Origin: Allocoleopsis franciscana PCC 7113
GTDB taxonomy: Bacteria > Cyanobacteriota > Cyanobacteriia > Cyanobacteriales > Coleofasciculaceae
Length of the DNA stretch: 64,000 nt
Direction of reading: 5' to 3'
Assembly: GCF_000317515.1 (NCBI RefSeq)
Contig: NC_019738.1
Coordinates: forward strand, 2,940,001 to 3,004,000
The first letter of the stretch is position 1. The number at the start of each line of letters is the position of its first letter. This document shows positions 37,751 through 59,378 of the stretch, one piece after another. The position numbers and the translations under genes are program-made. The notes below the pieces were generated by a model, which was not told where the DNA came from, did no database searches, and was given only the letters and a program-made list of their open reading frames with translations.

Positions 37751-40363
37751 ATGGGCTTATCTTATCCTGGCACGTTGCCTAAAAAATTCCAGATGTGGCA
37801 GCATTGGCATCGATTCAGTCTTTTGTTCTTAGCCAGTCTTGTCTTTTGCTGTGTCTTCCACTTTGGGTCACTAAGACAAGTCGCTCACTCAGCAACGCCA
37901 CAGAGGCAATTCACTGCATCAATACCCAGTCAAGAACCCTACTCTCAAGTAGTGCAGCAAGGAGTTGAACGCTATCAAGCTGGCAAATTTACGGAAGCGA
38001 TCGCACTGTGGCAAAAAGTCCTATCACAAATTACAAGCCCGAAAGAGCGAGCCGCCCTTTATAGTAATCTGGCACTGGCTTATCGGCAAATTGGACAATC
38101 AGGGAAAGCGATCGCCCATTGGCAGCAAGCGATTCAAATTTACCAGCATCAAGACGATCAGGCAGCACGTAGCCAGCTACCCAAACTCCTGACCGAGCAA
38201 GCACAAGCTTACAACGAACTGGGGCAGAATCGACAGGCGATTAAAATTTTACAGTCGGCGCTAGAACGTGCCAAACAAATCCCAGACTTACAAACCCAGG
38301 CGGCAACCTTAGGAGCATTAGCTAATGCCTATTGGGCGGTGGGGAACTACGAAAAAGCTCTCTTTTCTCATCAAGCAAGTTTAAAAATTGCCCGTCAGCT
38401 CAACACTCCAGACTATATTGCAAGTTCCCTGAATAATTTAGGTAATCTCTACATCAGCCGTTCTGAGCGGTATCGCTATCAAGCAAACGTTGCTCGTGTC
38501 GAAGGGGATGAACCCGAAAAAATTCGGCTCATGCAGTTGGCAGAACAAGAGATGACGGCTGCACAATCAGCCTTTAACGAAAGCTTGCGGGAGACTCAAG
38601 CTGTAGGCGGTATCACCTACGTCAAGACGTTACTCAATCTCAATCGTCTACTAGAGCAATTGCCATCACCTGACTGGGCAGCTATTGCCAGGAACCGCGA
38701 AAAGTTGTTAGTAAGGGTGGAAACACTACCCGACTCACGGGATAAAGCCTACATTTTGATCAACCTTGCACAGCATTTTAGCGATCCAGAGCCAGGGAGA
38801 AATGCTTTAGACGCTTCACTTGTGTTGAAAAAAGCCGTTAGTATAGCCAGAAACATAGGAGATCAGCGAGCAGAATCCTTTGCTCTGGGTAGTTTAGGGC
38901 AGATTTACAAGTCAGCCGGTCAAACCTCAGAGGCGATGGAGTTAACCCAACAAGCACAATGGGTAGCCATGCAAGCCAATGCGCCTGATAGTGCTTATCG
39001 CTGGCAGTGGCAAACTGGGCGGTTGTTGAAGGCAGGCGGGAAGACAAAAGAAGCGATCGCCTCTTACGAACAAGCGATCGCAACCCTCCAGAGCATTCGC
39101 AACAATCTACTAGCAATTAACACTAATTTGCAATTTGACTTCCGCGACTCCGTTGAACCCGTTTATCGCGAGTTGATGCAACTATTACTAGAACCATCCA
39201 TGCTCAGGAATCTAGAGCAACGAAAAACCAATTTGAGTAAAGTGATTGATACTCTAGAATTGCTCAAATTAGCAGAACTGCAAAATTATTTTGGCGATGA
39301 GTGTGTAGAAGTTGCCCAGGCAGATGCCAAAAGCGAGGCGAGTCTGCTTGATGCCAATAGCGCCATTATTTACTCAGTGATTCTCCATGATCGCACTGAA
39401 ATGATTCTCCGCTTGCCGGACGGTCTATTAACCAGCTATTCCGTCTCTCTTAATCAAGAGCAAATGCAGCAAGAAATTGACCAATTACGCAAGTTACTCG
39501 AAAAACGCTCAACAAACGAGTACTTATTAGCTGCCCAAAAAATCTATAACGCCTTGATTCGTCCCTTGGAGGCAGACTTAGCAGCAGCCAAAGTTAAGAC
39601 GCTGATTTTCATCCAAGATGCCATGTTGCGGCAAGTACCGATGGCAGCGTTGCATAATGGTCAACAGTTTTTGATTGAGAACTATGCGATCGCCACAACA
39701 CCTAGTTTGGCACTCACCACTCGCACTCGTGCTCCAGAACACTACTCTAGTGCTTTAATTATGGGCTTAACCGTAGAGCGTCCGCCTTTTATCGCCTTAA
39801 CGAATGTCCGTACTGAAGTCGCGAGTGTGCAAAAACTTCTGGGCGGTACTCAACTTTTAGATCAAGACTTTACCTTGGCAAATCTGCAAGAGCAATTGCA
39901 AAACAAAAGTTATCCCGTGGTTCACATTGCAACTCATGGGAAATTTGGAGTGGATGCCGCGAGTACCTTTTTATTAACGTTCGACTCACGCATGACGTTG
40001 GAGCAATTTGACGAAGTTTTGCGAGAAGCCAAGTTATCCCAAAAGCGATCGCAACGAAACCAACAACCCGTAGAATTACTAACTTTAAGTGCTTGTCAAA
40101 CAGCAGCCGGCGATAACCGAGCCGCTTTGGGAATTGCGGGTGTAGCTGTTCGGGCAGGGGTTAGGAGTGCTCTTGCTAGCTTATGGAATATTAATGATGA
40201 AGCTACAGTTCCCCTGATTGAAGAATTTTACACTCAGTTAGAACAACCCTATGTCACAAAAGCCAAAGCACTTCAAACAGCGCAGTTGAAGATGATTAAT
40301 CATTTAGAATACTCTCATCCAGCAGTTTGGTCGCCTTTTATTTTGATTGGCAATTGGCTTTGA
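37751..40363 (+). CDS. TPR-CHAT caspase-like protein (copy 1)
   Basis: The start chosen is ATG 37751; ATG 37793 is the alternative, but similarity to copy 2 (FQxxQxWxRFSL) begins just before it. The protein is about 870 residues. A hydrophobic signal-type segment (RFSLLFLASLVFCCVFHFGS) is followed by six or more TPR repeats (YQAGKFTEAIALWQKVL, LALAYRQIGQSGKAIAHWQQAI) and a C-terminal CHAT domain with the catalytic pair His (VHIATHGKFG) and Cys (LTLSACQTAAGD). CHAT domains are clan CD (caspase/separase-like) proteases. Probably exported or membrane-anchored, with TPRs binding a partner. Confidence 0.88.
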   Translation: MGLSYPGTLPKKFQMWQHWHRFSLLFLASLVFCCVFHFGSLRQVAHSATPQRQFTASIPSQEPYSQVVQQGVERYQAGKFTEAIALWQKVLSQITSPKERAALYSNLALAYRQIGQSGKAIAHWQQAIQIYQHQDDQAARSQLPKLLTEQAQAYNELGQNRQAIKILQSALERAKQIPDLQTQAATLGALANAYWAVGNYEKALFSHQASLKIARQLNTPDYIASSLNNLGNLYISRSERYRYQANVARVEGDEPEKIRLMQLAEQEMTAAQSAFNESLRETQAVGGITYVKTLLNLNRLLEQLPSPDWAAIARNREKLLVRVETLPDSRDKAYILINLAQHFSDPEPGRNALDASLVLKKAVSIARNIGDQRAESFALGSLGQIYKSAGQTSEAMELTQQAQWVAMQANAPDSAYRWQWQTGRLLKAGGKTKEAIASYEQAIATLQSIRNNLLAINTNLQFDFRDSVEPVYRELMQLLLEPSMLRNLEQRKTNLSKVIDTLELLKLAELQNYFGDECVEVAQADAKSEASLLDANSAIIYSVILHDRTEMILRLPDGLLTSYSVSLNQEQMQQEIDQLRKLLEKRSTNEYLLAAQKIYNALIRPLEADLAAAKVKTLIFIQDAMLRQVPMAALHNGQQFLIENYAIATTPSLALTTRTRAPEHYSSALIMGLTVERPPFIALTNVRTEVASVQKLLGGTQLLDQDFTLANLQEQLQNKSYPVVHIATHGKFGVDAASTFLLTFDSRMTLEQFDEVLREAKLSQKRSQRNQQPVELLTLSACQTAAGDNRAALGIAGVAVRAGVRSALASLWNINDEATVPLIEEFYTQLEQPYVTKAKALQTAQLKMINHLEYSHPAVWSPFILIGNWL

Positions 40364-40954: not shown

Positions 40955-43147
40955 ATGACCAACCTGATGGCTGAAGCAATGCCCATGGCTCCGATACCTG
41001 CAAACGAAGTTGAACGCTTAGCGGCTCTCTATCGGTATCGCATTCTCGATACTCCTCCTGAAGCAGCTTTCGATCGCCTTACCACATTGGCAGCGCGGCT
41101 ATTTGATATGCCGATCGCTCTCGTTTCGCTAGTGGACAAATCGCGAGCCTGGTTCAAGTCTTGCCACGGCTTCAATTTGAGTGAAGTTCCGCGAGATGCC
41201 ACGATTTGCAGCTTTGCGCTTTTATACAATCAGGTTTTAGTCGTTCCAGATACCCGACAAGATGAGCGATTCGCGTGTAATCCGTTTGTGCAAAGTGAAC
41301 CGGGCGTTCGTTTCTATGCAGGCGCTCCTCTAGTCACCCACGATGGCTTTAATCTGGGTACCCTCTGTCTGCTAGACAGCAAGCCCCGTGATGCTTTGAG
41401 TGCAGAGCAGCAAACCATTCTGGCTGATTTAGCCGCGATGGTGGTGGACGAACTGGAACTCCGCTATTCAGCTAATCGCATTACTCAAATCGATCAGGCA
41501 CTGCTAGCCGTAACGCAGGGGGTTTCAGCCGCAACGGGTGAAGCATTCTTCTATTCCCTGGTACAACATTTTGCCAATGTTTTGGCAGTGGATTACACCT
41601 ACATTGGTCTACTTGTCGAGCGCGACTCAGAAGAACTGATTCAAACGATCGCCACCTGTGCCCAGGGTCAAATTGTAGACAACTTCGAGTACTTACTGCG
41701 AGATACCCCTTGTCAAGCCGTACTGAAGCACCGAAAAATTTGTTGCTACCCTTCTAGTGTGCAAGCTCTATTTCCCCACGCTCCCCTACTCGCTCCGCTG
41801 CAAATAGAAAGCTATATCGCGGTTCCGTTTTTTGACTCAACTGGCACACCATTAGGATTACTGGGTGTGATGGATCGCAAACCGTTAGAAAATGCCCAAC
41901 TCACAGAAACCCTGCTTTCTATCTTTTCCATGCGAATCGCGGCTGAACTAGAGCGGCAGTGGGCGGAGGAGAAACGCATTCAGATGCTAGCCCGCGAACA
42001 GGAAGCCCGCGAGCAAGCTGAGGCAGCAAACCGCATCAAGGATGAATTTCTGGCGGTACTCTCCCATGAATTGCGATCACCCCTCAACCCGATTCTGGGT
42101 TGGTCTAAGCTACTCCGTAGCGGCAAATTAAATGCTGCAAAAACGGCTCAGGCTTTGGAAATAATTGAGCGCAATGCCAAACTCCAATCACAACTGATTG
42201 AGGATTTGTTGGATGTCTCTCGCATCTTGCGGGGCAAACTTAGCCTGAATATGGTTCCGGTGAATCTAGCCTCTACGATTAAAGCCGCATTAGAAACTGT
42301 GCGGTTAGCGGCAGAAGCGAAGTCCATTCAAATTCAGACCATGTTTGACCCAACAATCGGGCAAGTGTTGGGAGATGCCGCTCGCCTACAGCAGGTGATT
42401 TGGAATTTACTCACCAATGCCGTTAAGTTTACTCCTGAGGGAGGACGAGTAGAAATCCAGTTGCAGCTCATTGGCTCACAGGCTCAAATTCAAGTGAGGG
42501 ATACAGGGAAAGGCATTTCTCCTGATTTCCTGCCGCATGTGTTTGAATACTTCCGTCAGGCGGATGCGACTACAACTCGAACGTTTGGCGGATTGGGGTT
42601 AGGGTTGGCGATTGTACGGCATCTGGTGGAACTGCATGGTGGTACTGTTCAAGTAGACAGTCCTGGGGAAGGACAGGGAGCCACATTTACAGTTAGGCTG
42701 CCTCTAATCAAGGATAAAAGCAGTAAGCAGAAAGCAGAGGGGAATTCCTCACCTCTGACTCCTGAGCCTTCACCGCTTACAGGGATACGGGTACTGGTCG
42801 TTGATGATGACACAGATAGCCGCGAGTTTATTGCCTTCGCCCTCGAACAGTTGGGGGCACAAGTCAGCACGGTGACATCAGCAGAAGAAGCGATCGCTTT
42901 CCTGGAGCAATCGCAGCCAAATATTCTGTTGAGTGACATTGGTATGCCTGACATGGACGGCTATATGCTGATGCGCCAAATCCGGGCAATGCCACCAGAG
43001 CAAGGCGGACAGATTTTAGCGATTGCCCTAACGGCTTATGCTGGGGAAATTGATCGGCAACAGGCACTATTTGCCGGATTTCAACACCATCTCGCCAAGC
43101 CAGTCGAACCGAATGAACTCGTCAAAATGATTCTCAGCTTACTTTAA
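40955..43147 (+). CDS. GAF-GAF hybrid histidine kinase with receiver domain
   Basis: This is a 730-residue soluble protein. The first GAF domain (about 18-170: ALYRYRILDTPPEAAFDRLTTLA, DRFAC-like motif, FYAGAPLVTHDGFNLGTLCLLD) is followed by a second GAF (about 180-330), coiled coil, HisKA box (FLAVLSHELRSPLNPILGW) and HATPase (NLLTNAVKFTP, DTGKGI, GGLGLGLAIV). The C-terminal receiver domain has VLVVDDDTDS, phospho-acceptor Asp in LLSDIGMPD and a conserved Lys in LAKPVE. Lies between the CHAT and TPS genes on the same strand and could control them. No membrane span is seen. Confidence 0.92.
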   Translation: MTNLMAEAMPMAPIPANEVERLAALYRYRILDTPPEAAFDRLTTLAARLFDMPIALVSLVDKSRAWFKSCHGFNLSEVPRDATICSFALLYNQVLVVPDTRQDERFACNPFVQSEPGVRFYAGAPLVTHDGFNLGTLCLLDSKPRDALSAEQQTILADLAAMVVDELELRYSANRITQIDQALLAVTQGVSAATGEAFFYSLVQHFANVLAVDYTYIGLLVERDSEELIQTIATCAQGQIVDNFEYLLRDTPCQAVLKHRKICCYPSSVQALFPHAPLLAPLQIESYIAVPFFDSTGTPLGLLGVMDRKPLENAQLTETLLSIFSMRIAAELERQWAEEKRIQMLAREQEAREQAEAANRIKDEFLAVLSHELRSPLNPILGWSKLLRSGKLNAAKTAQALEIIERNAKLQSQLIEDLLDVSRILRGKLSLNMVPVNLASTIKAALETVRLAAEAKSIQIQTMFDPTIGQVLGDAARLQQVIWNLLTNAVKFTPEGGRVEIQLQLIGSQAQIQVRDTGKGISPDFLPHVFEYFRQADATTTRTFGGLGLGLAIVRHLVELHGGTVQVDSPGEGQGATFTVRLPLIKDKSSKQKAEGNSSPLTPEPSPLTGIRVLVVDDDTDSREFIAFALEQLGAQVSTVTSAEEAIAFLEQSQPNILLSDIGMPDMDGYMLMRQIRAMPPEQGGQILAIALTAYAGEIDRQQALFAGFQHHLAKPVEPNELVKMILSLL

Positions 43148-43322: not shown

Positions 43323-45947
43323 TTGGTAGATAAAAATTCTCTCAAAAAAATTCAAACTAGGTTGAAGTCGTGGGAAATAACGTTGGCACAAGATATAGAG
43401 AATGGGTGCGATGAGTCGAAACTTCGTATCCGACTTAACGGTTGCCTGCTGATCAGGGAAGTGTTAGAGAAGCTTATCCTAAGCATTCCCGTCAAGAAAT
43501 CAAAAACATTAATTAATTACACTTTTCTGTTACTTTTTTACGTTTTACTTCCTCAAGGTCGGGCATTCGCTCAGTTAACCCCGGATACTACTTTAGGCAG
43601 CGAAAGTTCTATCATTACTCCTAGCGTTCTCATCAATAATCAACCCGCCGATCGCATCGATGGTGGAGCATTGAGAGGTGCAAACCTATTTCACAGTTTT
43701 TTAGAATTTAATCTTAACGACGGACAGCGGCTTTATTTTGCCTCACCAACTGGAATTGAAACTATTATTACGCGGGTAACAGGGGCTAATCCTTCTAATA
43801 TATTAGGAACGCTAGGTGTTAATGGTTCGGCTAATTTATTTTTAATGAATCCGAATGGCATTCTATTTGGCTCTAATGCGCGTCTGGATATAAAGGGTTC
43901 CTTTTTCGCAACGACGGCTAGCAGCATGGTGTTTGCCGATAGCAACTCATTCAGTGCGACAACGCCTCAAAACCCCTCACTTTTAACCGTCAGCGTTCCC
44001 TTGGGAGTGCAATTCGGGGCAACACCCGCAACGGTACAGGTGCAAGAATCAACTCTACAGGTGCCGTTGGGAAGAACCTTGGCACTTGTGGGCGGTGAAG
44101 TGAGGCTGCAAGGTGGCACAGTGGCAGCACCGGGCGGACGAATTGAACTCGGTAGCGTTGCAGATCATAGTTTTGTCAGTCTAAAACCGATTAATAATGA
44201 TTGGCAATTGGGCTATGAGGGTGTGCAGAACTTCCAAGATATACAGCTATCGAATCGGGCGGTCGTCAATGCCAGTGGTGACGGGGGAGGTGATATTCTG
44301 GTTTGGGCGCGATCGCTACGACTCGGTGAAGAGTCACGCCTTGAAGCATTAACCCTGGGTTCCCAACGCGGAGGAAAAATTAACGTCAACGCATCCAACT
44401 CAGTAGAACTCACCGGAACAGGAACCTATCTCCAGGACATACAACTGTTTTTAACCGGACAAATTAAACCGGCTAATCTACGCAATGGCTTGTTTACCCT
44501 AAGTTACGGTTCGGGTGCGGCGGGCGATGTGGTGATTAATACGCCTTCCTTTGTTGCCCGTAATGGAGCGTTTGTTGCCACATCTACCCTGGGAGCGGGT
44601 GAAGGTGGAGATTTAACCGTCAACGCCTCGGATAACGTCGAACTCACCACTTCTGCTTTAATCACAGGTAGTGGACTGGGGGATAGCGGTCAGGCTGGAA
44701 ACTTAACCGTGAATACAGGACGCTTTTTAGTGCAAGAGTATGGCGTTTTGGGAACGAGTACCCTGGGAAGCGGTAGGGGGGGAGAGTTAACCGTGAATGC
44801 CTCCCAATCCGTGGAACTCCTCGGCAACAATCCGATTGTGTTGGGTTCAGGTACTCGCTTTTTGACGGGCTTGTTTAGCACAACCTTCGGGGGTGGAGAT
44901 GCGGGAGACGTACAGGTGATGACACCGCGCTTGTCGGTACGGGATGGGGCGGCAATCGGGGCGAGTACCGCGAGTCTGGGAAAGGGGGGAAATCTTACAG
45001 TGACGGCGTCTGAGTTTGTGGAAATCATCGGCAAGTCTGGCGATGGTTCGGCTCAAAGTGCTGTGGCGGCTACAGCGGAGGCGGGTTCGACCGGTCAAGG
45101 CGGAAACTTAACCGTCCAAACTGGAGAATTGAGGCTTGAGGATGAGGGAAGACTCAGCGTCCGCAGTCGCGGAACGGGAGATGCAGGTAACTTGGAAGTC
45201 ATTGCTGATTCGATTAATCTTGACAATCAAGGCAGCATTGCCGCCGCCACAACCGTAGCTGGAGAGGGCGGGAATATTAAGTTACAAACCCATTCTTTGC
45301 AACTACGCCGCAACAGCATCATCAACGCCGAAGCGGGTGGTAGTGGAAATGGCGGCAACATCACGATTGACACAGACATCTTAGTTGCTCTGAAAAATAG
45401 CAGCATTACCGCTAACGCCTTCCAAGGGACTGGGGGAAATATTACAATTAACACCCAAGGTTTATTTGTTGCTCCAACAAGCAAAATCACGGCTAGTTCC
45501 ACTCTGGGAATTAGCGGCGTGGTAGATATCAATACCGAAGTGAATAGCGTTGAAGCGTCTCTGCCGCCCCTAGAAGAAGATTTTGTCAGTTCCGAACAAG
45601 TGATTGCCGATAGTTGTCTGGGACGCCCAAATGCTCAAGGTCGCAGCTTTACCGTCACTGGTACGGGTGGGTTACCGGCGACACCAGATGGTGCCTTCAC
45701 GACTTCTTATCCTATAACTGATGTACAGCAGATTGCTGAGAACAGCACCACGGGGTGGCGCGTGAGTCCAGAAGCGATCGCGGAACACTCCGACCGCCGC
45801 ATCGTCCTTCCCCTCCAAGAGGCGCAAGGAATGTTTATCACGGCTGATGGTCGTGTGGTTCTCGGTACTATCCCACAATTGGCAGCTCTCGCCCAGGCAG
45901 AGGACTTAATCTGCTACTTTCAAACACAGTCAGCATCTAGGAAGTAG
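43323..45947 (+). CDS. Two-partner-secretion exoprotein (TpsA) with filamentous-haemagglutinin N-terminal domain
   Basis: This is an 874-residue protein from a TTG start; no earlier ATG was found. A long N-terminal region ends in a signal peptide (LINYTFLLLFYVLLPQGRAFAQ). The TPS domain follows (LTPDTTLGSESSIITPSVL, FHSFLEFNLNDGQRLYFASP, then NPNGILFGSNARLDIKGSF with the NPNGI motif). The rest is a beta-helix of repeated G(G/E)GG(N/E/D)LTVNAS units. The tail has a Cys pair (DSCLGRP...LICYF). Exported across the outer membrane by a TpsB such as that at 54834-56597. Function is probably surface or adhesion related. Confidence 0.9.
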   Translation: MVDKNSLKKIQTRLKSWEITLAQDIENGCDESKLRIRLNGCLLIREVLEKLILSIPVKKSKTLINYTFLLLFYVLLPQGRAFAQLTPDTTLGSESSIITPSVLINNQPADRIDGGALRGANLFHSFLEFNLNDGQRLYFASPTGIETIITRVTGANPSNILGTLGVNGSANLFLMNPNGILFGSNARLDIKGSFFATTASSMVFADSNSFSATTPQNPSLLTVSVPLGVQFGATPATVQVQESTLQVPLGRTLALVGGEVRLQGGTVAAPGGRIELGSVADHSFVSLKPINNDWQLGYEGVQNFQDIQLSNRAVVNASGDGGGDILVWARSLRLGEESRLEALTLGSQRGGKINVNASNSVELTGTGTYLQDIQLFLTGQIKPANLRNGLFTLSYGSGAAGDVVINTPSFVARNGAFVATSTLGAGEGGDLTVNASDNVELTTSALITGSGLGDSGQAGNLTVNTGRFLVQEYGVLGTSTLGSGRGGELTVNASQSVELLGNNPIVLGSGTRFLTGLFSTTFGGGDAGDVQVMTPRLSVRDGAAIGASTASLGKGGNLTVTASEFVEIIGKSGDGSAQSAVAATAEAGSTGQGGNLTVQTGELRLEDEGRLSVRSRGTGDAGNLEVIADSINLDNQGSIAAATTVAGEGGNIKLQTHSLQLRRNSIINAEAGGSGNGGNITIDTDILVALKNSSITANAFQGTGGNITINTQGLFVAPTSKITASSTLGISGVVDINTEVNSVEASLPPLEEDFVSSEQVIADSCLGRPNAQGRSFTVTGTGGLPATPDGAFTTSYPITDVQQIAENSTTGWRVSPEAIAEHSDRRIVLPLQEAQGMFITADGRVVLGTIPQLAALAQAEDLICYFQTQSASRK

Positions 45948-46176
45948 GAAATAGAAGACATCAGGGAGTAAAAGAAGTCGTTTCTTTCATCTATAACGGG
46001 AGGTAAGCGCCCGTGAACTGCTTTAAACAGAATTCAATGCTTCCTACAGACTTTATATTTCAGCCTTCAGTTGACGCCGGAAATTAATCTCCGGGCGGGT
46101 TTGGTCGCTTACTGAAAAGGGTGCAAATCCCCAGCTTTTTTTACTATCGTCCTTGACTTTTAGGACTACCAATGAC

Positions 46177-50830: not shown

Positions 50831-50837
50831 TGTTCTC

Positions 50838-51005: not shown

Positions 51006-51115
51006 CACCCCCCTAGCCCCCCTTATTAAGGGGGGAATATGAGAAACTTTTATCCTGGGAGTAGAAAGAAATCTTACTCCCTCCCCTTACCAAGGGGAGG
51101 GTTGGGGAGGGGTCT
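51006..51115. repeat. Palindromic GC-rich dispersed repeats
   Basis: CCCCCCTAGCCCCCCTTATT AAGGGGGG and CTCCCTCCCCTTACC AAGGGGAGGG blocks lie in the gap before the PW-domain gene; same class as the elements at 1.4, 13.1, 14.6 and 25.4 kb. Confidence 0.7.
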
Positions 51116-51133
51116 AGCATTTTTGCGAGAAGT

Positions 51134-51631: not shown

Positions 51632-51730
51632 ATTCTGGGTAATGTCTTGAAGAAGGGTGGTACTGCGATCGCGTATTTGAGCGCACGACTGCGTAAAATG
51701 ACAAACTGGTTAAGAAAAGGCAGCGATAAT

Positions 51731-51856
51731 CTAGAGCGCTCTGATCAGTTCAAGGAGCGCTGCCCTTCTTGAGATATCTATGTTTAGTGTCAATCTTTGC
51801 ATCTTGAACAGCAGGCGAACCAGTATCCAAGGGTGAAGGCGTTCTTTGTAAGGCAT
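51731..51856 (-). CDS. Truncated PW-motif small protein
   Basis: This is a 41-codon frame (MPYKERLHPWILVRLLFKMQ...) whose first 20 residues match the start of the PW-motif protein at 25226 (KKQCLNPWAVARQLPSLK). The rest diverges and stops early. It follows a leader hairpin of the same design as the 25.2-kb gene, with GGAG before the start. It may be a decayed copy. Confidence 0.45.
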   Translation of the reverse strand: MPYKERLHPWILVRLLFKMQRLTLNIDISRRAALLELIRAL

Positions 51857-51882
51857 AATTAACTTGTCTCCATGTGTAATTG

Positions 51883-51928
51883 GAGCCAGAGCCAGTGCTG
51901 ATTGGTTGGTAGCCCGGACGCACTGGCT
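51883..51928 (-). promoter_or_regulatory. Structured leader hairpin, copy B
   Basis: On the minus strand AGCCAGTGC pairs with GCACTGGCT (51920-51928 with 51890-51898), followed by TGGCTCTGGCTCCAA. Stem bases differ from copy A at three pairs, all with compensating changes. It lies 27 nt before the start of the truncated PW-motif gene. Confidence 0.6.
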
Positions 51929-51969
51929 TTCTGACCGTGTGAAGTTATGCCTTCATACTACGGGCAAAT

Positions 51970-51993
51970 AATAGTTAAGTCAACTTAACTATT
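51970..51993. promoter_or_regulatory. Operator-like palindrome upstream of the XRE gene
   Basis: AATAGTTAAGT-CA-ACTTAACTATT is a perfect 11-bp inverted repeat with a 2-nt spacer, ending 23 nt before the ATG at 52017. This is a typical site for autoregulation by a dimeric XRE protein. Confidence 0.55.
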
Positions 51994-52016
51994 CTAGTTC
52001 TGGAATAAGACAGTTA

Positions 52017-52217
52017 ATGGCTAGTGTGGGGGAAAAGCTCAAACAACGGCGCAAATTGCTCAATTTGACGCAGCAGCAAATCGCTGATGAATTGGGTGTG
52101 ACTGTAACTACTGTGAAAAATTGGGAAGCTGGTAGATATATTCCAAAGCTCTATTTACCACAGACTAAAGCGTTGTGTGACCTCCTGAAGCTTTCCTTAG
52201 ATGAGCTGGTAGATTAA
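52017..52217 (+). CDS. XRE-family transcriptional regulator
   Basis: This is a 66-residue protein consisting of one helix-turn-helix domain (LKQRRKLLNLTQQQIADELGVTVTTVKNWEAGRYIPKL), with a short C-terminal helix. It has no other domain, so it is probably a simple dimeric repressor. GGAATAAGA precedes the ATG. A palindrome upstream is the likely binding site. No toxin-like gene is directly attached. Confidence 0.88.
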   Translation: MASVGEKLKQRRKLLNLTQQQIADELGVTVTTVKNWEAGRYIPKLYLPQTKALCDLLKLSLDELVD

Positions 52218-52327
52218 CCAACGAAGGTGCAGAGAGGTTGGAGTGAGAAGGACATTAGCGATCGCCTCCGATACTAGCAAAGGCGATCGCACTGACGTAC
52301 AATTTCTTTATAATTCAGCGTCAGAAA

Positions 52328-52364
52328 AGCCACGGCTACTGAGGTTTTCCTTATAGCCGTGGCT
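52328..52364. terminator. Strong hairpin after the XRE gene
   Basis: AGCCACGGCTA and TAGCCGTGGCT form an 11-bp perfect stem with a 15-nt loop. A T run is present on the minus-strand side (AAAAAAGT at 52381 read in reverse), so it may serve as terminator for the converging small ORF and XRE gene. Confidence 0.55.
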
Positions 52365-52389
52365 CTTAGTTAGTAAGGTCACTTTTTTG

Positions 52390-52494
52390 TTAAGCTTTCG
52401 TAGCTTCCAGCAGTTTGCCCCGATTACCCACTATTTGTCTGACCGTATTTGTAGCAATATCTGGATCGTCGGCTTTCACTATGATTTCTACCAT
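52390..52494 (-). CDS. Possible 34-residue protein
   Basis: The frame MVEIIVKADDPDIATNTVRQ...KLLEATKA begins at the only ATG available and ends next to the hairpin at 52328-52364. Composition looks protein-like (alternating hydrophobic and charged residues). The ribosome-binding site is poor (AGG touching the ATG). Not recognised. Confidence 0.3.
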   Translation of the reverse strand: MVEIIVKADDPDIATNTVRQIVGNRGKLLEATKA

Positions 52495-52732
52495 CCTAAA
52501 ATTATTGAACAGTAAATATCAAATGCTAATGTTTCCAGCGATGGATCAAGTAAAATATTCCAGGTATAGCGACTACTATTTCAGCAGGCGGACCCCCAAA
52601 ACAAAAAGCTAACACGAGTGAAGCAATATAACTAGTGGTTAGGACAAGTGTCGTTGTTGCCATATCTTTTCTTTGTTCATTAACGCTTCTACTCCGAGTA
52701 TCAACGGCTGATGCTTACAAGCGCTACGGCAA

Positions 52733-52777
52733 AAACACGGAATTTATTTTCAAGAAAGCTCAAAAAATTCCGTGTTT
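52733..52777. terminator. Inverted repeat with AT-rich loop
   Basis: AAACACGGAATTT and AAATTCCGTGTTT (13 bp perfect) are separated by 19 nt. It lies about 40 bp after the stop of the HNH-like gene on the minus strand and could terminate it. No other feature was seen in 52500-52816. Confidence 0.45.
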
Positions 52778-52816
52778 ATACGGAATCGCACTGGTGTTAA
52801 ACCAGTTCGCAATTAT

Positions 52817-53332
52817 TTATGCAAGCGACATACTAACAACTATAAGCGCTCCAGTTACAGGATCTCTTCGATAAGTGGTTCGTACACCATTCTTTACTTC
52901 ATCGAAAAACTCTGATGCTTGCTGATTGTATACAGTTTGATGACCGATGGCTGTATTACCACTGTTTACCTGTACTCCAGAATTATCATTTTTGAATTCT
53001 TGAACAGTACCAATACCCTGAACAGGTTCATCGGAACGTGTGTGTTCACCCCTAGAAATCGCAGCTAATAGTGATTTCTTATACTCCCGTAGCTCTGATT
53101 GAGTAATGCCTTTACTTTGGCTTGTACTACTGTCATATTCGTCATGATGCTCAAAGCACAGATACACTAGGTTAGCCTCATCGGGATTCGATGAATCCTG
53201 ATCGATATGGGCAATCTGCCCCTTCTTGCGAGTGAAATCCCCTTCAAAACCAAAACATAATGCACATCTCCGTGCAGATGCAAGGAGTATATTTATTTCC
53301 ACTTGTGGCGGAATCGGCTTCCTATTTCCCAT
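52817..53332 (-). CDS. HNH-like (treble-clef) nuclease-domain protein
   Basis: This is a 171-residue protein. ARRCALCFGFEGDFTRKKGQ, IAHIDQDSSNPDEANLVYLCFEHHDEYDS matches an HNH-type zinc finger: CxxC, a His-containing AHID strand, then CxxHH. The middle is helical (SELREYKKSLLAAISRG) and the tail is Asn/Gln-rich with a NSGNTAIGHQTVYNQ segment resembling ligand or nucleotide-binding repeats in some conflict-system proteins. Could be a toxin or defence nuclease. No partner gene is obvious. Confidence 0.6.
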   Translation of the reverse strand: MGNRKPIPPQVEINILLASARRCALCFGFEGDFTRKKGQIAHIDQDSSNPDEANLVYLCFEHHDEYDSSTSQSKGITQSELREYKKSLLAAISRGEHTRSDEPVQGIGTVQEFKNDNSGVQVNSGNTAIGHQTVYNQQASEFFDEVKNGVRTTYRRDPVTGALIVVSMSLA

Positions 53333-53501
53333 ACTTGACTGCCTAGTGTAGCTTAACAGCAGAGTTTACGACAGCAAACATCTCATACATCGTAATCCAA
53401 GGGATCTCAAAGCAGCAGGGAGTTCTCAATCGCGGTATAGTGTGATAGCACTGGAGCAGCTAACAGCATACTTGAGCGGTAGCAAGCAAGCTTAAAATCA
53501 A

Positions 53502-53771
53502 TCATTTTGGACTTTCGTCCTTTTGCTCCAACGAAGTACTCGGCTGCATTTTGGGAGCAAGAGCTTGATTTTCTTGCATAATCCTGATCAGAAACCGTAG
53601 AGCCTCATTGACTGCATCAGCATTAGGAAACATCTCTGCAACATCAGGCTCTAAGCGTACAGTTGTCCCACCAAAACTCTTCCGTCCAGAGCCTAACTTT
53701 CTGACTCGTAGGCTCTTTAAGTCATATTCTGACCGCAGATCATCTTCCATGTCTGGCTTAACCCTCTTCAT
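53502..53771 (-). CDS. Antitoxin partner of BrnT-like toxin
   Basis: This 89-residue protein overlaps the toxin 3' end by 14 nt. It has RLEPDVAEMFPNADAVNEALRFLIRIM, a ribbon-helix-helix-like end as in BrnA-type antitoxins, but the N-terminus (KPDMEDDLRSEYDLKSLRVR) does not match classical BrnA closely. It should bind and neutralise the toxin and repress the operon. Confidence 0.7.
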   Translation of the reverse strand: MKRVKPDMEDDLRSEYDLKSLRVRKLGSGRKSFGGTTVRLEPDVAEMFPNADAVNEALRFLIRIMQENQALAPKMQPSTSLEQKDESPK

Positions 53772-54030
53772 AAACTTCTCGTTCGGATCGTGTTACTTCT
53801 CTTGCGCTAATCAGGCGAATAACATCTCCTCTTTCTGTATAGGACACAATCAGTAAACGTCCCCGGTTTGACTCTCCAACAATAAGGTAACGCTCCTCAT
53901 CCTTAGAGTGGTCTGGATCGTAGAAGTCAACATAGAGTGGATCATCGAAAACGGTTTTGGCTTCCTCGAACGAAACTCTGTGCTTTGACAGATTCCTTGC
54001 CGCCTTGTTTTCGTCCCATTCAAAATTCAT
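53758..54030 (-). CDS. brnT: BrnT-family toxin
   Basis: This 90-residue protein has the BrnT signature: FEWDENKAARNLSKHRVSFEEAKTVFDDPL, DHSKDEERYLIVGESNRGRLLIVSYTERGDVIRLISAREVTRSERE. BrnT toxins are RelE-like ribonucleases that block translation. The operon order is toxin then antitoxin with an overlap, as in BrnTA modules. It sits among small mobile or conflict-type genes (51-54 kb). Confidence 0.9.
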   Translation of the reverse strand: MNFEWDENKAARNLSKHRVSFEEAKTVFDDPLYVDFYDPDHSKDEERYLIVGESNRGRLLIVSYTERGDVIRLISAREVTRSEREVYEEG

Positions 54031-54253
54031 GGAATGATTCTAGCCTCAAGCATTTGAAGGGATTTTTAGTACGATTGCCTTGTGTACTCGATCGCACGCT
54101 CAACGCCTTGTGTGCTGAATGGCATCCTCAACTCGTTACAATTAGCAATAAACATCGTTACAATTAGTAACAAATAAGCCAGTAAAATCTCCATCTCCTT
54201 GCTGGGGAGAATGTTAACAACGCTTCCAACGCTAATTGATTCTGCAACCCCCT

Positions 54254-54757
54254 ATGCCCTCATCAAATACCCAACTCCACGAATCCGTTGAAGTCGCCAC
54301 TGTGCCTGAACAGCCGTCCTGGCAAATCAAATTGCTGTACGACGGTGAATGTCCGTTGTGCGTGCGAGAAGTCAACTTCTTGAGAAAACGCGATGCAGGC
54401 CGAAGAAAAGTGGCGTTTGTGGACATTGCCGAGGATGACTACACTCCCTCTTCGCATGGCGGGGTAGACTTTGAGACAGCAATGGGGCGAATTCACGCGG
54501 TACTCCCCGACGGCACTGTGATCAAAAATGTCGAGGTTTTTCGTCGAGTCTACGAAATCCTGGGGATGGGGTGGATTTATGCTGCCACCAAGCTACCTGT
54601 GATTGGTTGGATTGTGGATACCCTATACGAAATCTGGGCGGACTGGCGACTGGCTCTCACGGGACGACCAGACTTAGCTACTATTATGAGCGATCGCCAG
54701 AAGCGGATTGAGTGTAACACCACCGGGCGTTGCCGATTGAATGACGATGATGATTAA
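54254..54757 (+). CDS. DCC-family (DUF393) thiol-disulfide oxidoreductase-like protein
   Basis: ATG 54254 is preferred to a TTG at 54236. The protein is about 167 residues, with the DCC motif DGECPLCVREVNFLRKRDAGR (CPLC active site), VAFVDIAEDDY, a central helix and PVIGWIVDTLYEIWADWR. DCC proteins have a thioredoxin-like fold and are predicted redox enzymes. It stands alone between the BrnT and TpsB genes. Confidence 0.88.
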   Translation: MPSSNTQLHESVEVATVPEQPSWQIKLLYDGECPLCVREVNFLRKRDAGRRKVAFVDIAEDDYTPSSHGGVDFETAMGRIHAVLPDGTVIKNVEVFRRVYEILGMGWIYAATKLPVIGWIVDTLYEIWADWRLALTGRPDLATIMSDRQKRIECNTTGRCRLNDDDD

Positions 54758-54833: not shown

Positions 54834-56597
54834 TTAAAAAGGCTGAAAACGAATTGAAAACGAAATCCCATTATCTTGCAGAGAATTACCATCTTCAGTA
54901 ACCGAAATCAGAGGAATTCCCCAATCCAAACGAGCAGAAAAATGAGGATTACGTTGCCAACGTAATCCTAAACCAATGCTAGCTAAAGTACTGGAACTGG
55001 GGATTTCGCCCTGATTATTCCAAACCGTACCCACATCAAAAAAAGGAGTCAACAGCAAGGTTCCCATACCATCCGGTTGGCGAATAATCGGATAGTGCAA
55101 TTCCAGAGAACCCACAATCCCATTATCCGCTACTCTTTGATTTTGCCGATAGCCCCGCACCGTCTCGACTCCCCCCATACTAAACTGTTCAATGGGTAAG
55201 AGAGAATCTAAGGAAAATTGAGCGGCGGCGCGAGCCAAGAAGATGGTATTTCCACCTAAAGCCTCAACCCATTGAAACTGTCCCAACCAACTCGCAAACT
55301 GCCCATCAACGCCAGTTTCATTAGACGTAGCTCCCAAAGCATTCAATCCCAAACTCAACTGCGATCGCGCCGCTAAAACTCTCGTTGTCGAGCGATTAAT
55401 CCAGTCCTGATTCAACCGCAGAACCGTCAACTTAGACTTACCATTTTCTGGCCCTGGAGAAAAAGAATAGGGTACATTTTCAAATAAATAAGTCTGACTT
55501 TGACGCAAATCCAAAGAGACACCAACGGTAAATTCACTCTTGGGAGTGCGAACAATAGGCTGACGAAAACCCAGTGAAACGTTGTAAGAATCCGCGTTAA
55601 TATCTAAATCTGCAAAGGGTTGTTCCACAATCCGGCTGCTACTACTGCCATAGCTAATATTCACCGTGCCATCACGAGGATTGACGGGAAATTCATAGCC
55701 CAAGTTATAAGTATTGATCCCTGGACTGACTCCATAATCGAAAGTAAAGCGATCGCCAAAACCCAGCAAGTTGTTATGGGCAATTTCGGCTGTTCCCCGA
55801 ATCTCACCCACACTGGGGGAATCCCGATTTTCGACGGTGAATGCGGCGGTATAGGGTTGTGCTTCTTTTACATTGAGCGTTAATACACTCAAACCGGGGG
55901 CGGTACCTGCGGCAAGTTCAGCTTGTACTGTCTTGATTAAAGGATTAAGTTGCAAGAGTTGTAAGGCTTCTTCCAGACGGGGAAGATTAACGGGGGCAAG
56001 AGTTGCGAGGTTAATGCGCGATCGCACATAAGCGCTTCTCAAACGTGTCAATCCCTCAATCTCAATCTTTTCAATCGCACCTTCTACCACCTGAATCTTC
56101 ACCACACCATCGGTTAAATCTTGGGCGGGCAAAAATGCACCCGAAGTGGTGTAACCCTGATTGGTATATAACTGAGTAATAGCAGCCCGAATCGCCAACA
56201 AATCTTCAAACGTGGCTTCTTTTCCGATAAAAGACGCCACGGCAGCTTCTAATTCTTGGGGTGAAAAGACTGTACTGCCTAAAACTTCTACTCGTTTCAC
56301 CTTCACCTTCACCCCCAATTCGGTGGGTGGTGTCAGGGGTATCTCCGGTGGGGGTGTGAGTGGAGAGGGTGGCGTAGGCGTGTCGGGAGAGGTGGAGGGT
56401 AAAGGGGGTAATCCTGGACGAGTCGGTTCGAGAATTCCAGGTGGCAGATTAGGATTGGTTTGTGCTAACTGTAAAACGATTGAGGGGGTTGGCGTCTGTT
56501 GATTTTCTTCCGACTCAGGAGCCTGTTGTGCTAAGGTCACACAATGGCAACTGAAGTATAACAAACCCGTACCGAGCAGAATTTGTCTCAAATGCAT
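54834..56597 (-). CDS. TpsB outer-membrane transporter (ShlB/FhaC/HecB family)
   Basis: This is a 587-residue protein. A signal peptide (LLGTGLLYFSCHCVTLAQQ) is followed by a Pro-rich linker (about 40-95) and two POTRA domains (VKVKRVEVLGSTVFSPQELEAA, QGYTTSGAFLPAQ, VVEGAIEKIEIEG). A 16-strand beta-barrel ends in Phe (FSIRFQPF), as required for outer-membrane insertion. GVETVRGYRQNQ is the loop region with the conserved VRGY motif that enters the pore. It should export the TpsA at 43323-45947, although the two genes are 9 kb apart and on opposite strands. Confidence 0.93.
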   Translation of the reverse strand: MHLRQILLGTGLLYFSCHCVTLAQQAPESEENQQTPTPSIVLQLAQTNPNLPPGILEPTRPGLPPLPSTSPDTPTPPSPLTPPPEIPLTPPTELGVKVKVKRVEVLGSTVFSPQELEAAVASFIGKEATFEDLLAIRAAITQLYTNQGYTTSGAFLPAQDLTDGVVKIQVVEGAIEKIEIEGLTRLRSAYVRSRINLATLAPVNLPRLEEALQLLQLNPLIKTVQAELAAGTAPGLSVLTLNVKEAQPYTAAFTVENRDSPSVGEIRGTAEIAHNNLLGFGDRFTFDYGVSPGINTYNLGYEFPVNPRDGTVNISYGSSSSRIVEQPFADLDINADSYNVSLGFRQPIVRTPKSEFTVGVSLDLRQSQTYLFENVPYSFSPGPENGKSKLTVLRLNQDWINRSTTRVLAARSQLSLGLNALGATSNETGVDGQFASWLGQFQWVEALGGNTIFLARAAAQFSLDSLLPIEQFSMGGVETVRGYRQNQRVADNGIVGSLELHYPIIRQPDGMGTLLLTPFFDVGTVWNNQGEIPSSSTLASIGLGLRWQRNPHFSARLDWGIPLISVTEDGNSLQDNGISFSIRFQPF

Positions 56598-56705
56598 GAA
56601 TGAGTTAACCGTAAATCTAGGAGTTAAGAAATGTCGGTGGATTTACGGACACTCCCCAGTCTACTCAATAAAATACACTTATCTGTCTCTGGATAGTTGA
56701 CTGAA

Positions 56706-59378
56706 ATGTTTCAAATTTGCCAAGATTGGCGTCGATTCAGTCTTATCTTCTTCGCGAGTCTTGTTTTTTGCAGCGTATTTCACGTGGGAGCAATAGGACA
56801 AGCTCAGTCTTCGGCTCCTGTAGAGCAGCCATCTCTCCCCTCTCCTCCTGCGAGTGGGAGTCAACAACCCTATTCCCAAGCGATACAGCAGGGGATTGAA
56901 CGCTATCAAGGGGGGCAATATGCTGAAGCGATCGCACTCTGGCAACAAGCCTTAACCCAAATTTCCGCCGCCCCAGAGAGAGCGATCATTTACAGTAATT
57001 TAGCGATCGCCTATCGACAAATCGGTCAATTGGATCGAGCAATCGCTCATTGGGAACAAGCCATCCAAATTTATCGCGCCCAAAAAGATGAGGCGGCACG
57101 CTCAGCACAGGCGAGATTGTTCACCGAGCAAGGACAGGCTTACAGCGATTTGGGACAACACAAACGAGCGATTACCCTATTGCAATCAGCGGTTAAAATT
57201 ACTCAAAACACTCCCAATCGACTCACAGAAGCGGCAGCTCAAGGAGCCTTAGGCAGTGCCTACTGGGCATTAGGGGACTATGATCAAGCATTGGCAGCGC
57301 ACCAAACCAGTTTAAAAATTGCCCGTGAATTGAATTATCCCCCTTACATCACAACCGCGTTGAATAACCTGGGCAATGTCTACGCGAGCCGGGGCGATCG
57401 CTATACTTATCAGGCTGAGTTAGCTCAATTAGAGGGCAATAATCGAGAATTTTCGCGCCTATCCCAAGCCGCAACACAAGATCGAACCCAGGGCAAAACT
57501 TACTTTGAGCAAAGTTGGCAAGCAGCTCAAGGGGTTTCAGGGTTAGAGGAAGCAAGAGCCTTGATGAATTGGAATCGTTTGCTGGTTCGGAGTCAGCGTT
57601 CGGGAGCCAGTGGGAACGCCCAGACACAAATTACCCAGCATGACGGAAATTTAATCCTAAAAAATTTTAACCGAGCCAGCGAGTTACTGCAAACCGCACC
57701 GGATTCGCGAGACAAAGCCTATGCGTTAATTAATCTGGCAGAACAAATTTCAAAGGTTGAGGGTTCAAATCTACAACCTGCAACTCTTTTAGAACAAGCG
57801 CTGACGGTGGCGAGAAAGATTGGGGATGCTAGAGCGGAATCCTTTGCTTTAGGAAGCTTCGCCGAGTTACACGAGGCGGCAGGAGACTTGAATCGTGCCC
57901 TGGCATTGAATCGCAAAGCGCAGTTTGCGGCTCAGCAAATCAATGCACCGGATAGCTTGTATCGCTGGCAGTGGCATGTGGGGCGAATGCTCAAAGCGTT
58001 GGGTGAAACCGAACAAGCGATCGCCGCTTATGAACAAGCGATCGCAACGTTGCAAAGCATTCGAGGGGATATTGTTGGCGCGAACAAAGATTTGCAACTC
58101 GATTTCCGCGAACAGGTGGAGCCAGTCTATCGGGAATTGATGACATTATTACTGGAATCTCCCCCATCCGCGAAGGTGAAAAGTGTTATCCCCACGCCAA
58201 AATCTTTGCTCCCCAATCCGTATATTCAGGTAAGTTTGAAAACGACAAAATCCAATCGTGCCAAGTCTTCTGTAGAGCAAGTTGTGGATATTTTGGAATT
58301 ACTCAAACTGGCTGAATTGCAAAACTTCTTTGGGGATGAGTGTGTGCAGGTAGCCTTGGCTGAGAGTGAGGGTGAGGCAGCGTTGACGGATACCAATACC
58401 GTTGTGGTTTACTCGGTGATTTTGGACAAGCAGACGCACCTAATTTTGCGATCGCCGGATGGTTCACTTACCCATTATCCCATTGCAATGGGACGGCAGG
58501 CAATTGAGCAAAAAATTGACCAATTGCGCTATTTCTTGGAATTACGGGCAACGGAAGATTATCTATCCCAAGCGCAGAAAATATACGATTGGCTGATTCG
58601 TCCCTTAGAAGCAAACTTAACGACGTTCAAGCCCAATACTGTGGTTTTTATTAACGATGGAGTGCTGCGGAAAGTCCCGATGGCAGCATTACATGATGGC
58701 AAGGAATTTTTAATTCAGAAGTATCCCATTGCCACAACACCGAGTCTGAGCCTAACGACTCGCCAACCTGTACACAATAACAATTTATCAGCTCTCAGTT
58801 TAGGATTAACCGTGGAGCGATCGCCCTTTGCTTCCCTCTCCAATGTCAGGGCGGAGGTAGAAGCGGTAAACCAGATTTTAGGCGGCACGAAACTCATTGA
58901 TGAAGGGTTTACCCTGCCCAACTTGCAAACCCAATTGCAGAAAAAAAGTTACCCCATTGTACATATCGCCACTCACGGTAAGTTTGGTGTGGATGCGGAG
59001 AGTACATTTTTGGTAGGATTTGACCAGCGGCTGAGTATTGAAACCCTGGATAACTTGTTGCGTTCTCGTCGCAGTCGAGAGGCGGTAGAATTGCTGACAC
59101 TGAGTGCTTGTCAAACCGCTGCTGGGGATAACCGTTCAGCCTTGGGAATTGCGGGGGTTGCGGTTCGTGCTGGGGTTGAGAGTGCCCTAGCAACGCTGTG
59201 GTATATCAACGACGAAGCCACAGTGCCCCTGATTAAGGAATTTTATAGCCAATTGCGTCAACCGAATGTGACCAAGGCGGAAGCGTTGAGACGGGCACAG
59301 GTGAAGATGATTGCGGATGCAAATTACAATCATCCTGCGGTTTGGTCGCCGTTTGTTCTGATTGGGAATTGGTTGTAG
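56706..59378 (+). CDS. TPR-CHAT caspase-like protein (copy 2)
   Basis: The start chosen is ATG 56706 (MFQICQDWRRFSL); a TTG lies 9 nt upstream. About 890 residues with the same layout as copy 1: hydrophobic segment (FSLIFFASLVFCSVFHVGAI), TPR repeats (YQGGQYAEAIALWQQALTQ, GDYDQALAAHQTSLKIARE) and a CHAT domain with His (VHIATHGKFGVDAE) and Cys (LTLSACQTAAGDNRSALG). It is divergent from TpsB with a 108-bp shared upstream region, which suggests joint control. It differs from copy 1 by insertions, such as a linker near 490-520. Confidence 0.9.
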   Translation: MFQICQDWRRFSLIFFASLVFCSVFHVGAIGQAQSSAPVEQPSLPSPPASGSQQPYSQAIQQGIERYQGGQYAEAIALWQQALTQISAAPERAIIYSNLAIAYRQIGQLDRAIAHWEQAIQIYRAQKDEAARSAQARLFTEQGQAYSDLGQHKRAITLLQSAVKITQNTPNRLTEAAAQGALGSAYWALGDYDQALAAHQTSLKIARELNYPPYITTALNNLGNVYASRGDRYTYQAELAQLEGNNREFSRLSQAATQDRTQGKTYFEQSWQAAQGVSGLEEARALMNWNRLLVRSQRSGASGNAQTQITQHDGNLILKNFNRASELLQTAPDSRDKAYALINLAEQISKVEGSNLQPATLLEQALTVARKIGDARAESFALGSFAELHEAAGDLNRALALNRKAQFAAQQINAPDSLYRWQWHVGRMLKALGETEQAIAAYEQAIATLQSIRGDIVGANKDLQLDFREQVEPVYRELMTLLLESPPSAKVKSVIPTPKSLLPNPYIQVSLKTTKSNRAKSSVEQVVDILELLKLAELQNFFGDECVQVALAESEGEAALTDTNTVVVYSVILDKQTHLILRSPDGSLTHYPIAMGRQAIEQKIDQLRYFLELRATEDYLSQAQKIYDWLIRPLEANLTTFKPNTVVFINDGVLRKVPMAALHDGKEFLIQKYPIATTPSLSLTTRQPVHNNNLSALSLGLTVERSPFASLSNVRAEVEAVNQILGGTKLIDEGFTLPNLQTQLQKKSYPIVHIATHGKFGVDAESTFLVGFDQRLSIETLDNLLRSRRSREAVELLTLSACQTAAGDNRSALGIAGVAVRAGVESALATLWYINDEATVPLIKEFYSQLRQPNVTKAEALRRAQVKMIADANYNHPAVWSPFVLIGNWL

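Follow-up and report, generated by a model that had tools for sequence, protein, structure and literature searches.

Gene content of the locus

The window considered here is the whole stretch of 64,000 nt analysed from the genome of Allocoleopsis franciscana PCC 7113, an 8-Mb cyanobacterial genome (contig NC_019738.1; G000:C1:2940001-3004000). It contains a run of genes for two TPR-CHAT (caspase-like) proteins, a two-partner secretion (TPS) exoprotein with its TpsB transporter, a CHASE2 receptor with a cyclase domain, and a DUF928 protein. The linked occurrence of these families is real, wider than first reported, and undescribed in the open-licence literature searched. All families named in a preliminary description of the locus, made from the sequence alone, have been recovered by Pfam where it had placed them, and the run comprises the following features (window coordinates and strand).

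37700..40363 (+): CHAT1, TPR-CHAT (caspase-like) protein with an N-terminal hydrophobic segment; Pfam CHAT and TPR, E 2.4e-59
40955..43147 (+): GAF-HisKA-REC hybrid kinase, inside the run; Pfam
43323..45947 (+): TPS1, TpsA-type exoprotein with a TPS secretion domain and a beta-helix; Pfam PF05860, E 1.3e-60
45615..45914 (+): C-terminal TPS1 tail spanning its two conserved Cys, a predicted anchor or processing tail; alignment and model
45648-45677 (+): FTVTGTGGLP motif in the TPS1 tail; alignment
46153..48117 (+): CHASE2 receptor with class III adenylate/guanylate cyclase; Pfam PF05226 and PF00211, E 1.2e-72
48285..49031 (+): DUF928 protein; Pfam E 1.3e-50, model and fold matches
49529..54757 (.): DEAD helicase, XRE HTH, BrnT toxin and DCC1-like gene, between DUF928 and TpsB; Pfam
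54834..56597 (-): TpsB, POTRA_2 and ShlB barrel, putative outer-membrane pore for the TPS protein; Pfam
56697..59378 (+): CHAT2, second TPR-CHAT; Pfam E 3.3e-57

Past the window end, a second set of TPS, CHASE2-cyclase and DUF928 genes runs in the same order (genome positions 3005627-3011719, locus L264). As the TPS-CHASE2-DUF928 order is thus repeated after CHAT2, the two CHATs, initially taken to bracket a single assembly, are instead the CHATs of two tandem runs of the form CHAT-(x)-TPS-CHASE2-DUF928. Their close relationship is borne out by 58% identity over the open reading frame (ORF) and 67% over the CHAT domain, and both have an N-terminal hydrophobic segment and retain the His/Cys dyad (H746/C799) in the PF12770 domain. 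The comparison of own-genome paralogues covers the loci fetched, which hold a part of the 52 CHATs of this genome; among these, CHAT1 and CHAT2 are reciprocal best matches, and so are the two DUF928 proteins, the CHASE2 proteins of the two runs are mutual second best, and the TPS domains are not mutual best. Given this partial pattern, part of the set has probably been duplicated, or TPS domains have been exchanged; duplication of the whole module was considered and rejected.

In the CHAT tree, CHAT1 and CHAT2 belong to one six-row clade (support 97/93) without being sisters; CHAT1 falls in clade B, and the nearest tree neighbours of the window CHATs are cyanobacterial. The longest reading of CHAT1 starts with TTG, and internal ATGs sit ahead of the hydrophobic segment. 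TpsB and CHAT2 are divergent, with 99 bp between their longest ORFs, in agreement with the shared upstream region noticed earlier.

Linkage within and among genomes

That TPS, TPR-CHAT and the DUF928-CHASE2 pair constitute a recurring linked module, in cyanobacteria far above chance, is well supported. Before merging, the own genome has 54 CHAT, 36 TPS, 16 CHASE2 and 17 DUF928 rows; after fragments and sub-cut-off rows were removed or merged, 52 of the 54 CHAT, 33 of the 36 TPS and 15 of the 17 DUF928 places were used and compared with 2000 random placements and 2000 shifts. CHASE2 is found within 5 kb of DUF928 at 11 of 15 places (0.3 expected), CHAT within 5 kb of DUF928 at 9 of 15 (1.0 expected), and CHAT within 5 kb of TPS at 12 of 33 (2.2 expected, fusions counted in). 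At this distance the observed values were reached in 0/2000 permutations for CHAT-DUF928, CHAT-TPS, CHAT-CHASE2 and DUF928-CHASE2, in 0-3 of 2000 for TPS-CHASE2, and in 40-65 for DUF928-TPS; at 25 kb the last pair occurs at 8 of 15 places, reached in three random and nine shifted placements. TpsB-type POTRA proteins lie within 5 kb of CHAT in three of six cases (0.4 expected; matched by 12 random and 20 shifted of 2000 each), and in the same permutation test TpsB-DUF928 and TpsB-CHASE2 show no enrichment.

Outside this genome, 20 of 28 relatives were used, eight being dropped because their contigs were short or the match lay at the end of one; profiles for this survey and for that of CHAT loci were iterated from window seeds rather than taken from Pfam. 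Twenty DUF928-centred stretches in the relatives contain CHAT in 13 cases, CHASE2 in 13, TPS in eight and ShlB in four. Twenty control stretches, placed by the author at round coordinates of large contigs from 11 of the 20 genomes, yield CHAT, TPS, CHASE2, DUF928 or ShlB in none, and a cyclase domain only in two. The CHAT-centred survey comprises the best 80 of 572 confirmed loci by similarity to the query and so favours this subfamily: TPS is present in 50 loci, DUF928 in 43, CHASE2 in 40 and ShlB in 17. At least one of TPS, CHASE2 and DUF928 accompanies CHAT in 65 loci; 23 have all three, five of them with ShlB as well. TpsB accompanies a minority of these CHATs and is not supported as an obligate neighbour.

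The broadest survey covers 24 genomes, that is, the own genome and those of the same family, order or class out of 59, the other 35 having no DUF928 match. They contain 105 DUF928 proteins, 145 CHASE2 proteins and 95 TPS tails of the type described below. CHASE2 occurs within 5 kb of 61 of the 105 DUF928 genes (1.9 expected), and DUF928 within 10 kb of 38 of the 95 tails (2.4 expected). Tail and DUF928 are both present in 16 genomes and both absent from seven, DUF928 alone being found in one; members of the CHAT family are more widespread (22 of 24). Rank correlations of the counts, controlled for genome size, are 0.89 for DUF928-CHASE2 and 0.70 for DUF928-tail. Among 50 TPS and CHAT ORF pairs at most 1 kb apart, 38 follow the same-strand order TPS then CHAT, with a median gap of 47 bp over the 50 (stop-to-stop ORFs); CHAT and ShlB are adjacent in 12 pairs within 1 kb. 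Ambiguous residues are present in 7 of 390 family ORFs.

Complete or partial sets are also found in Nitrospirota and Desulfobacterota. In Nitrospira (L241), TPS, TpsB, CHAT, CHASE2-cyclase and DUF928 stand in a row (Pfam), and partial sets are seen in Desulfobacter, Desulfatirhabdium, Desulfococcaceae, Syntrophaceae and a Nitrospirae bin. The CHATs of Nitrospirota and Desulfobacterota form one supported tree clade together with a single gammaproteobacterial CHAT, which has no module neighbour in its short stretch.

The preliminary description had named adjacency no higher than abundance predicts as the outcome that would speak against it; adjacency above that level is observed in the own genome, against the controls, in the best 80 of 572 loci and in the 24 genomes. 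Ordinary co-location, with abundant families crowding flexible regions of large cyanobacterial genomes in the absence of any functional coupling, would fit the multi-copy state of CHAT, TPS, CHASE2 and DUF928 in this genome, but is contradicted by the 5-kb permutations, the empty controls, the correlations corrected for genome size, and the recurrence of the set in Nitrospira and, in part, in Desulfobacterota. We consider it extremely improbable.

An open-licence literature search pairing CHAT, CHASE2, TPS, caspase and hemagglutinin with cyanobacteria finds the set nowhere described, so that the earlier suggestion of an undescribed system holds within this literature. The CHAT-TPS-DUF928 link is absent from the available parts of PMC5587647, PMC6390638, PMC5108060, PMC8195603, PMC3501461, PMC2853523, PMC8151025, PMC5422565, PMC7475262 and PMC5756287, and DUF928 is mentioned, as far as the accessible text goes, by one paper (PMC5587647).

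Other features of the window and related observations are as follows. Membership of the hybrid kinase in the module is unproven, and the DEAD helicase, XRE HTH, BrnT and DCC1-like stretch is probably an interruption of the run and not a part of it. The BrnT ribonuclease toxin is encoded at 53758-54039 (-) (Pfam E 1.6e-29), next to an ORF at 53502-53792 without a Pfam match, a possible antitoxin. Upstream of CHAT1 and on the same strand are phycocyanin-type genes with cpcE and cpcF (32531-37668); the spacing from cpcF to CHAT1 is 31 bp, and read-through into CHAT1 is possible. A radical SAM C-methyltransferase of ribosomally synthesized and post-translationally modified peptide maturation (TIGR03975, 782.7 bits) is encoded at 60017-61969, between CHAT2 and the second TPS run, and the ORF at 29445-30734 (-) consists mostly of near-identical Gln-rich repeats, as seen in translation. 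An Rfam scan of 37000-64000 gives zero matches, and a tRNA search of the whole window finds none. Elsewhere, 22 cyanobacterial plasmids, of which five are predicted to be conjugative, carry DUF928 relatives, and in genome G026 about 31 kb (C1:1390078-1421392) hold five strong CHAT matches, one partial CHASE2 row at 1398173 and no DUF928 row.

TPS tails, CHAT clades and TPS::CHAT fusions

TPS proteins that lack a fused CHAT end in a tail of the form Cys ... F-x-x-T-G-[R]-G-G-L-P ... VEAQGW ... Cys. The TG[R]GGLP motif is present in 80 of 96 TPS proteins, and a Cys pair flanks it in 78 of the 80, with a median spacing of 98 residues; in 67 proteins these two are the sole Cys from the TPS domain onward. 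The residue preceding GG is R in 66 of 80. In the window protein the tail Cys are C21 and C120 of the last 130 amino acids, and an AlphaFold2 model of the last 300 amino acids of TPS1 consists of high-confidence beta-strands followed by a low-confidence tail.

In HMW1 and HxuA, a C-terminal disulfide-bearing domain remains periplasmic and locks TpsA in TpsB, according to the parts of two reviews at hand (PMC8151025, PMC5422565). The module shares with them a TPS domain, a TpsB partner and a C-terminal Cys pair beyond the beta-helix, which suggests that the module TPS may be anchored in the HMW1/HxuA manner. Unlike in these proteins, the Cys of the module are about 98 amino acids apart around TG[R]GGLP, a VEAQGW element is present, and a caspase-like protease and a CHASE2 sensor are linked.

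The CHATs themselves look like exported proteases. All 110 CHATs counted, those of tree clades A, B and F, keep the dyad (the tree has 12 further rows), and by a crude hydropathy test an N-terminal hydrophobic segment is present in 102 of 109 CHAT ORFs, as well as in 74 of 82 DUF928 ORFs. Csx29 and HetF are TPR-CHAT proteins of CRISPR or heterocyst contexts; they share CHAT and the His/Cys dyad with the module proteins, whose clade in turn appears to be exported. Searched against PDB sequences, the CHAT alignment profile matched by its TPR part alone among the 60 of 130 matches listed. Two TPR-CHAT genes near REC genes have been reported in Beggiatoa relatives in the portion of PMC5108060 that is available. 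At one own-genome locus (L112, 3385-13016), a tandem pair of tail-less TPS genes precedes a CHAT, the same gene as in L004, whose deep tree clade is distinct from A, B and that of the fused CHATs.

Tail and CHAT clade were compared for the 54 of 99 clade A and B CHATs that have a motif-bearing TPS within 8 kb. All 42 tails near clade A have R or K before GG, while among the tails near clade B this is so for 2 of 12, the others having T, N, S, P, G or A. Among the alignment columns differing most between CHATs of the two clades are 750-751, 795 and 822-824, which in sequence lie close to the catalytic His and Cys. Clan CD proteases often favour a basic P1 residue, a preference that fits the R/K tails of clade A.

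Eleven ORFs, all free of ambiguous residues and nine of them in the own genome, fuse a TPS domain to a C-terminal CHAT; one of them (L134) is truncated at the CHAT end by the locus border. None has the tail, and 9 of the 11 have no Cys between the two domains. In L116 a fusion is directly followed by CHASE2-cyclase and DUF928. The fused CHATs sit apart from the module TPR-CHATs in an 11-row clade (100/100), together with one CHAT that is not fused and two shorter copies of fused genes; two CHAT lineages thus associate with TPS proteins. An internal export signal in the fusions was rejected: a hydrophobic segment between TPS and CHAT (15 residues, hydropathy at least 1.6) is lacking in seven of the 11, and in the remaining four (1.67 to 1.92) none is right at the CHAT start. 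A TpsB::CHAT fusion, suggested by a POTRA-ShlB-TPR-CHAT ORF in Syntrophaceae (L189), was rejected as well, as a single ambiguous codon (X) lies exactly between barrel and CHAT and is followed by Met and a signal-like segment, so that two adjacent genes are the simplest reading.

The C-terminal position of CHAT in the fusions could also be that of a toxin. In a polymorphic-toxin or contact-dependent system, CHAT would be the toxic C-terminus of TPS, and the TPR-CHATs would be detached toxins or spares; known contact-dependent toxins are indeed borne by TPS proteins. We find this highly improbable, because stand-alone CHATs mostly have an N-terminal hydrophobic segment of their own, and because most TPS proteins (80 of 96) end in the same conserved tail instead of a polymorphic one, the 11 CHAT fusions being different. 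A further parallel is FhaB, reportedly matured by a dedicated surface protease, the subtilisin-like autotransporter SphB1. There, a surface protease matures a TPS protein; the module differs in having CHAT encoded beside TPS or fused to it.

The DUF928-CHASE2 pair and the possible function of the module

An alignment of 30 DUF928 sequences has conserved Trp, Tyr and Arg positions, and 77 of 82 proteins have exactly two Cys in the domain, the window copy having none. The AlphaFold2 model of DUF928 (mean predicted local distance difference test score 82.7) shows a beta domain followed by helices. Its best match among solved folds, found in a search blind to gene neighbours, is the C-terminal domain of MtxA, an exported protein of magnetotactic bacteria (4z29; Z 10.8, root-mean-square deviation 4.0, 151 aligned residues; next Z 7.2), and Foldseek gives E 1.4e-6 for the same pair. 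In the part of PMC4439547 available, MtxA has a signal peptide, and mtxA is followed by a gene similar to CHASE2 with adenylate cyclase. DUF928 and MtxA have in common an Ig-like and TPR-like fold, predicted for DUF928, a signal peptide, putative in DUF928, and a CHASE2-adenylate cyclase neighbour; unlike DUF928, MtxA has an extra N-terminal region (PMC4439547), and as there is no similarity at the level of sequence profiles, we do not file DUF928 as an orthologue of MtxA.

DUF928 and CHASE2 co-diverge (r 0.46 over 59 pairs, 0/5000 permutations), also among own-genome paralogues (r 0.42, n 12, 11/5000); for DUF928 and CHAT, r is 0.33 over 55 pairs. Of the 56 CHASE2 proteins encoded beside DUF928, 16 have a cyclase and 17 a CHAT-like domain at the N-terminus, its His and Cys recognized by motif; another C-terminal region is found in 16 and another N-terminal one in five, two being cut or alone. 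Of nine CHASE2 proteins examined with Pfam, four also contain CHAT, three a histidine kinase and one TIR, and the ninth has no further Pfam domain. As the CHASE2 outputs vary while DUF928 stays, the constant pair is DUF928 and the CHASE2 sensor. One own-genome CHASE2 protein (L115, 13380-16583 (-)) has three N-terminal TIR stretches with PADLOC matches to TIR defence models; its neighbours are DUF928, CHAT and two TPS genes. In PADLOC the window proteins match no more than a TPR model and, with their cyclase domain (E 2.9e-28), the models of Pycsar cyclases.

Partly similar arrangements have been described. A Nostoc punctiforme CHASE2-DUF928-WD40 cluster, read as serving transduction of extracellular signals, also has CHASE2 beside DUF928; it was reported from one of seven species, and CHAT and TPS are unmentioned in the accessible part of the paper (PMC5587647). 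In a Trichodesmium metacaspase-CHASE2 fusion, a caspase-like domain predicted to be cytoplasmic lies N-terminal to CHASE2 (PMC3501461, PMC2853523, each available in part). This protein resembles the CHAT-CHASE2 proteins found here, but its caspase-like domain is a p20 metacaspase and not CHAT, and the accessible text reports no link with TPS or DUF928; the caspase papers, to the same extent, name CHASE2 alongside p20 metacaspases.

The best explanation as a whole, which we hold tentatively and with slightly less than even confidence, is that an exported CHAT acts on the TPS anchor tail in the periplasm, while DUF928-CHASE2 senses at the membrane. Here we infer periplasmic export of CHAT and DUF928, a disulfide anchor, tail cleavage and sensing by DUF928-CHASE2. 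The TPS protein would exit via the TpsB pore, its C-terminal tail staying periplasmic and closed by a disulfide of the two conserved Cys, as in HMW1/HxuA. The exported TPR-CHAT from the adjoining gene would act on the tail there, a clade A CHAT cutting TG-R/K-GGLP at its basic residue or close by, and this cleavage would release or mature the exoprotein. DUF928, as a putative exported Ig-TPR protein of the MtxA fold, would partner the extracytoplasmic CHASE2 domain and report the envelope or cleavage state, and the CHASE2 protein would yield a cytoplasmic output, presumably a cyclic nucleotide here; other copies would use a histidine kinase, TIR domains or another CHAT, located in the cytoplasm. 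A bolder version, unlikely in our estimate, is a caspase system acting on both sides of the membrane, in which the periplasmic TPR-CHAT cuts the tail, DUF928 signals to CHASE2, and a cyclase, kinase, TIR or cytoplasmic CHAT fires inside; MtxA would then be in one class of CHASE2 partners with DUF928 and not a magnetotaxis protein.

A comparable logic is known from the Lap system, where an adhesin is held at the outer membrane, a periplasmic cysteine protease frees it, and an inner-membrane receptor is linked to a cyclic nucleotide. There, LapA leaves by type I secretion, LapG is transglutaminase-like, and LapD binds cyclic di-GMP. The proposed module would work alike with apparently unrelated parts, no family being known to be shared with Lap, and does not appear to be a member of it; a Pfam comparison of ten window proteins finds no LapG-type or GGDEF/EAL domain, no search aimed at Lap having been made.

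Several observations weigh against tail processing coupled to DUF928-CHASE2 sensing. The motif is lacking in 16 of 96 TPS proteins, those of Nitrospira included, the window's own tails carry T rather than R before GG, and the uncertain tail in the model may reflect poor prediction only. The R/K pattern needs just two changes on the CHAT tree, so that the 54 pairs are not independent events, and its match to the clades may come from shared descent rather than from matching of enzyme and substrate; an acidic switch between CHAT clades A and B was looked for in the alignment and not found. In the own genome, 23 of 52 CHATs stand alone, and DUF928 and TPS are weakly linked at 5 kb (3 of 15 places against 0.6 expected; 48/2000 random, 65/2000 shifted). 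DUF928-TPS co-divergence is weak, too (r 0.21 over 48), and DUF928 tracks CHAT nearly as it tracks CHASE2 (r 0.30 vs 0.38 over the same 42 loci; 0.51 vs 0.51 over 27). The DUF928 profile run against PDB sequences does not retrieve 4z29 up to E 10, and deletion of mtxA gave no phenotype under standard conditions in the available part of PMC4439547. The tail is also present at 7 of 10 own-genome TPS places without a surveyed family within 9 kb, where any action of CHAT would have to be in trans.

The tails at such isolated places, being independent of a nearby CHAT, agree with a somewhat unlikely alternative, a real linked module in which CHAT is a periplasmic executioner or regulator switched by DUF928-CHASE2, and TPS is merely a further output, for example a co-made adhesin. 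DUF928 adjoins CHAT or CHASE2 also where TPS is absent from the sampled stretch, DUF928-TPS is the weakest linkage among the pairs, and TIR and CHAT-like outputs are typical of cell-death or conflict proteins. Against it are the TPS::CHAT fusions and the absence of the tail from all 11, the TPS-then-CHAT order with its short median gap, and the common genome distribution of tail and DUF928.

The module could also serve a response to envelope stress or surface damage, with DUF928-CHASE2 sensing the periplasm and CHAT as a quality-control protease that clears stalled TPS from TpsB. The adjacent CHAT-ShlB pairs would suit such a role, and the Synechocystis DUF928 protein sll1891 is said, in the accessible part of PMC5587647, to respond to acid stress; a quality-control protease, however, would not be expected to recur beside TPS copies, to fuse to its client or to match a single tail residue, and we rate this role as quite unlikely.

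Returning to tail processing with DUF928-CHASE2 sensing, the surface-signal or regulated proteolysis system proposed in the preliminary description is partly supported: its linkage stands, and export is backed by crude hydropathy and the 11 TPS::CHAT ORFs, while signalling and proteolysis keep the status of proposals. No function for the CHAT, TPS, CHASE2 and DUF928 set has been found in the searched open-licence literature, and the repeated gene set suggests an undescribed route of surface-protein processing and signalling. If these families do form one system, many orphan genes would gain a common, testable role, and a caspase-like protease would gain a proposed substrate site. DUF928 would then be an exported partner of CHASE2 receptors and no longer a domain of unknown function, which would also offer a new reading of MtxA.

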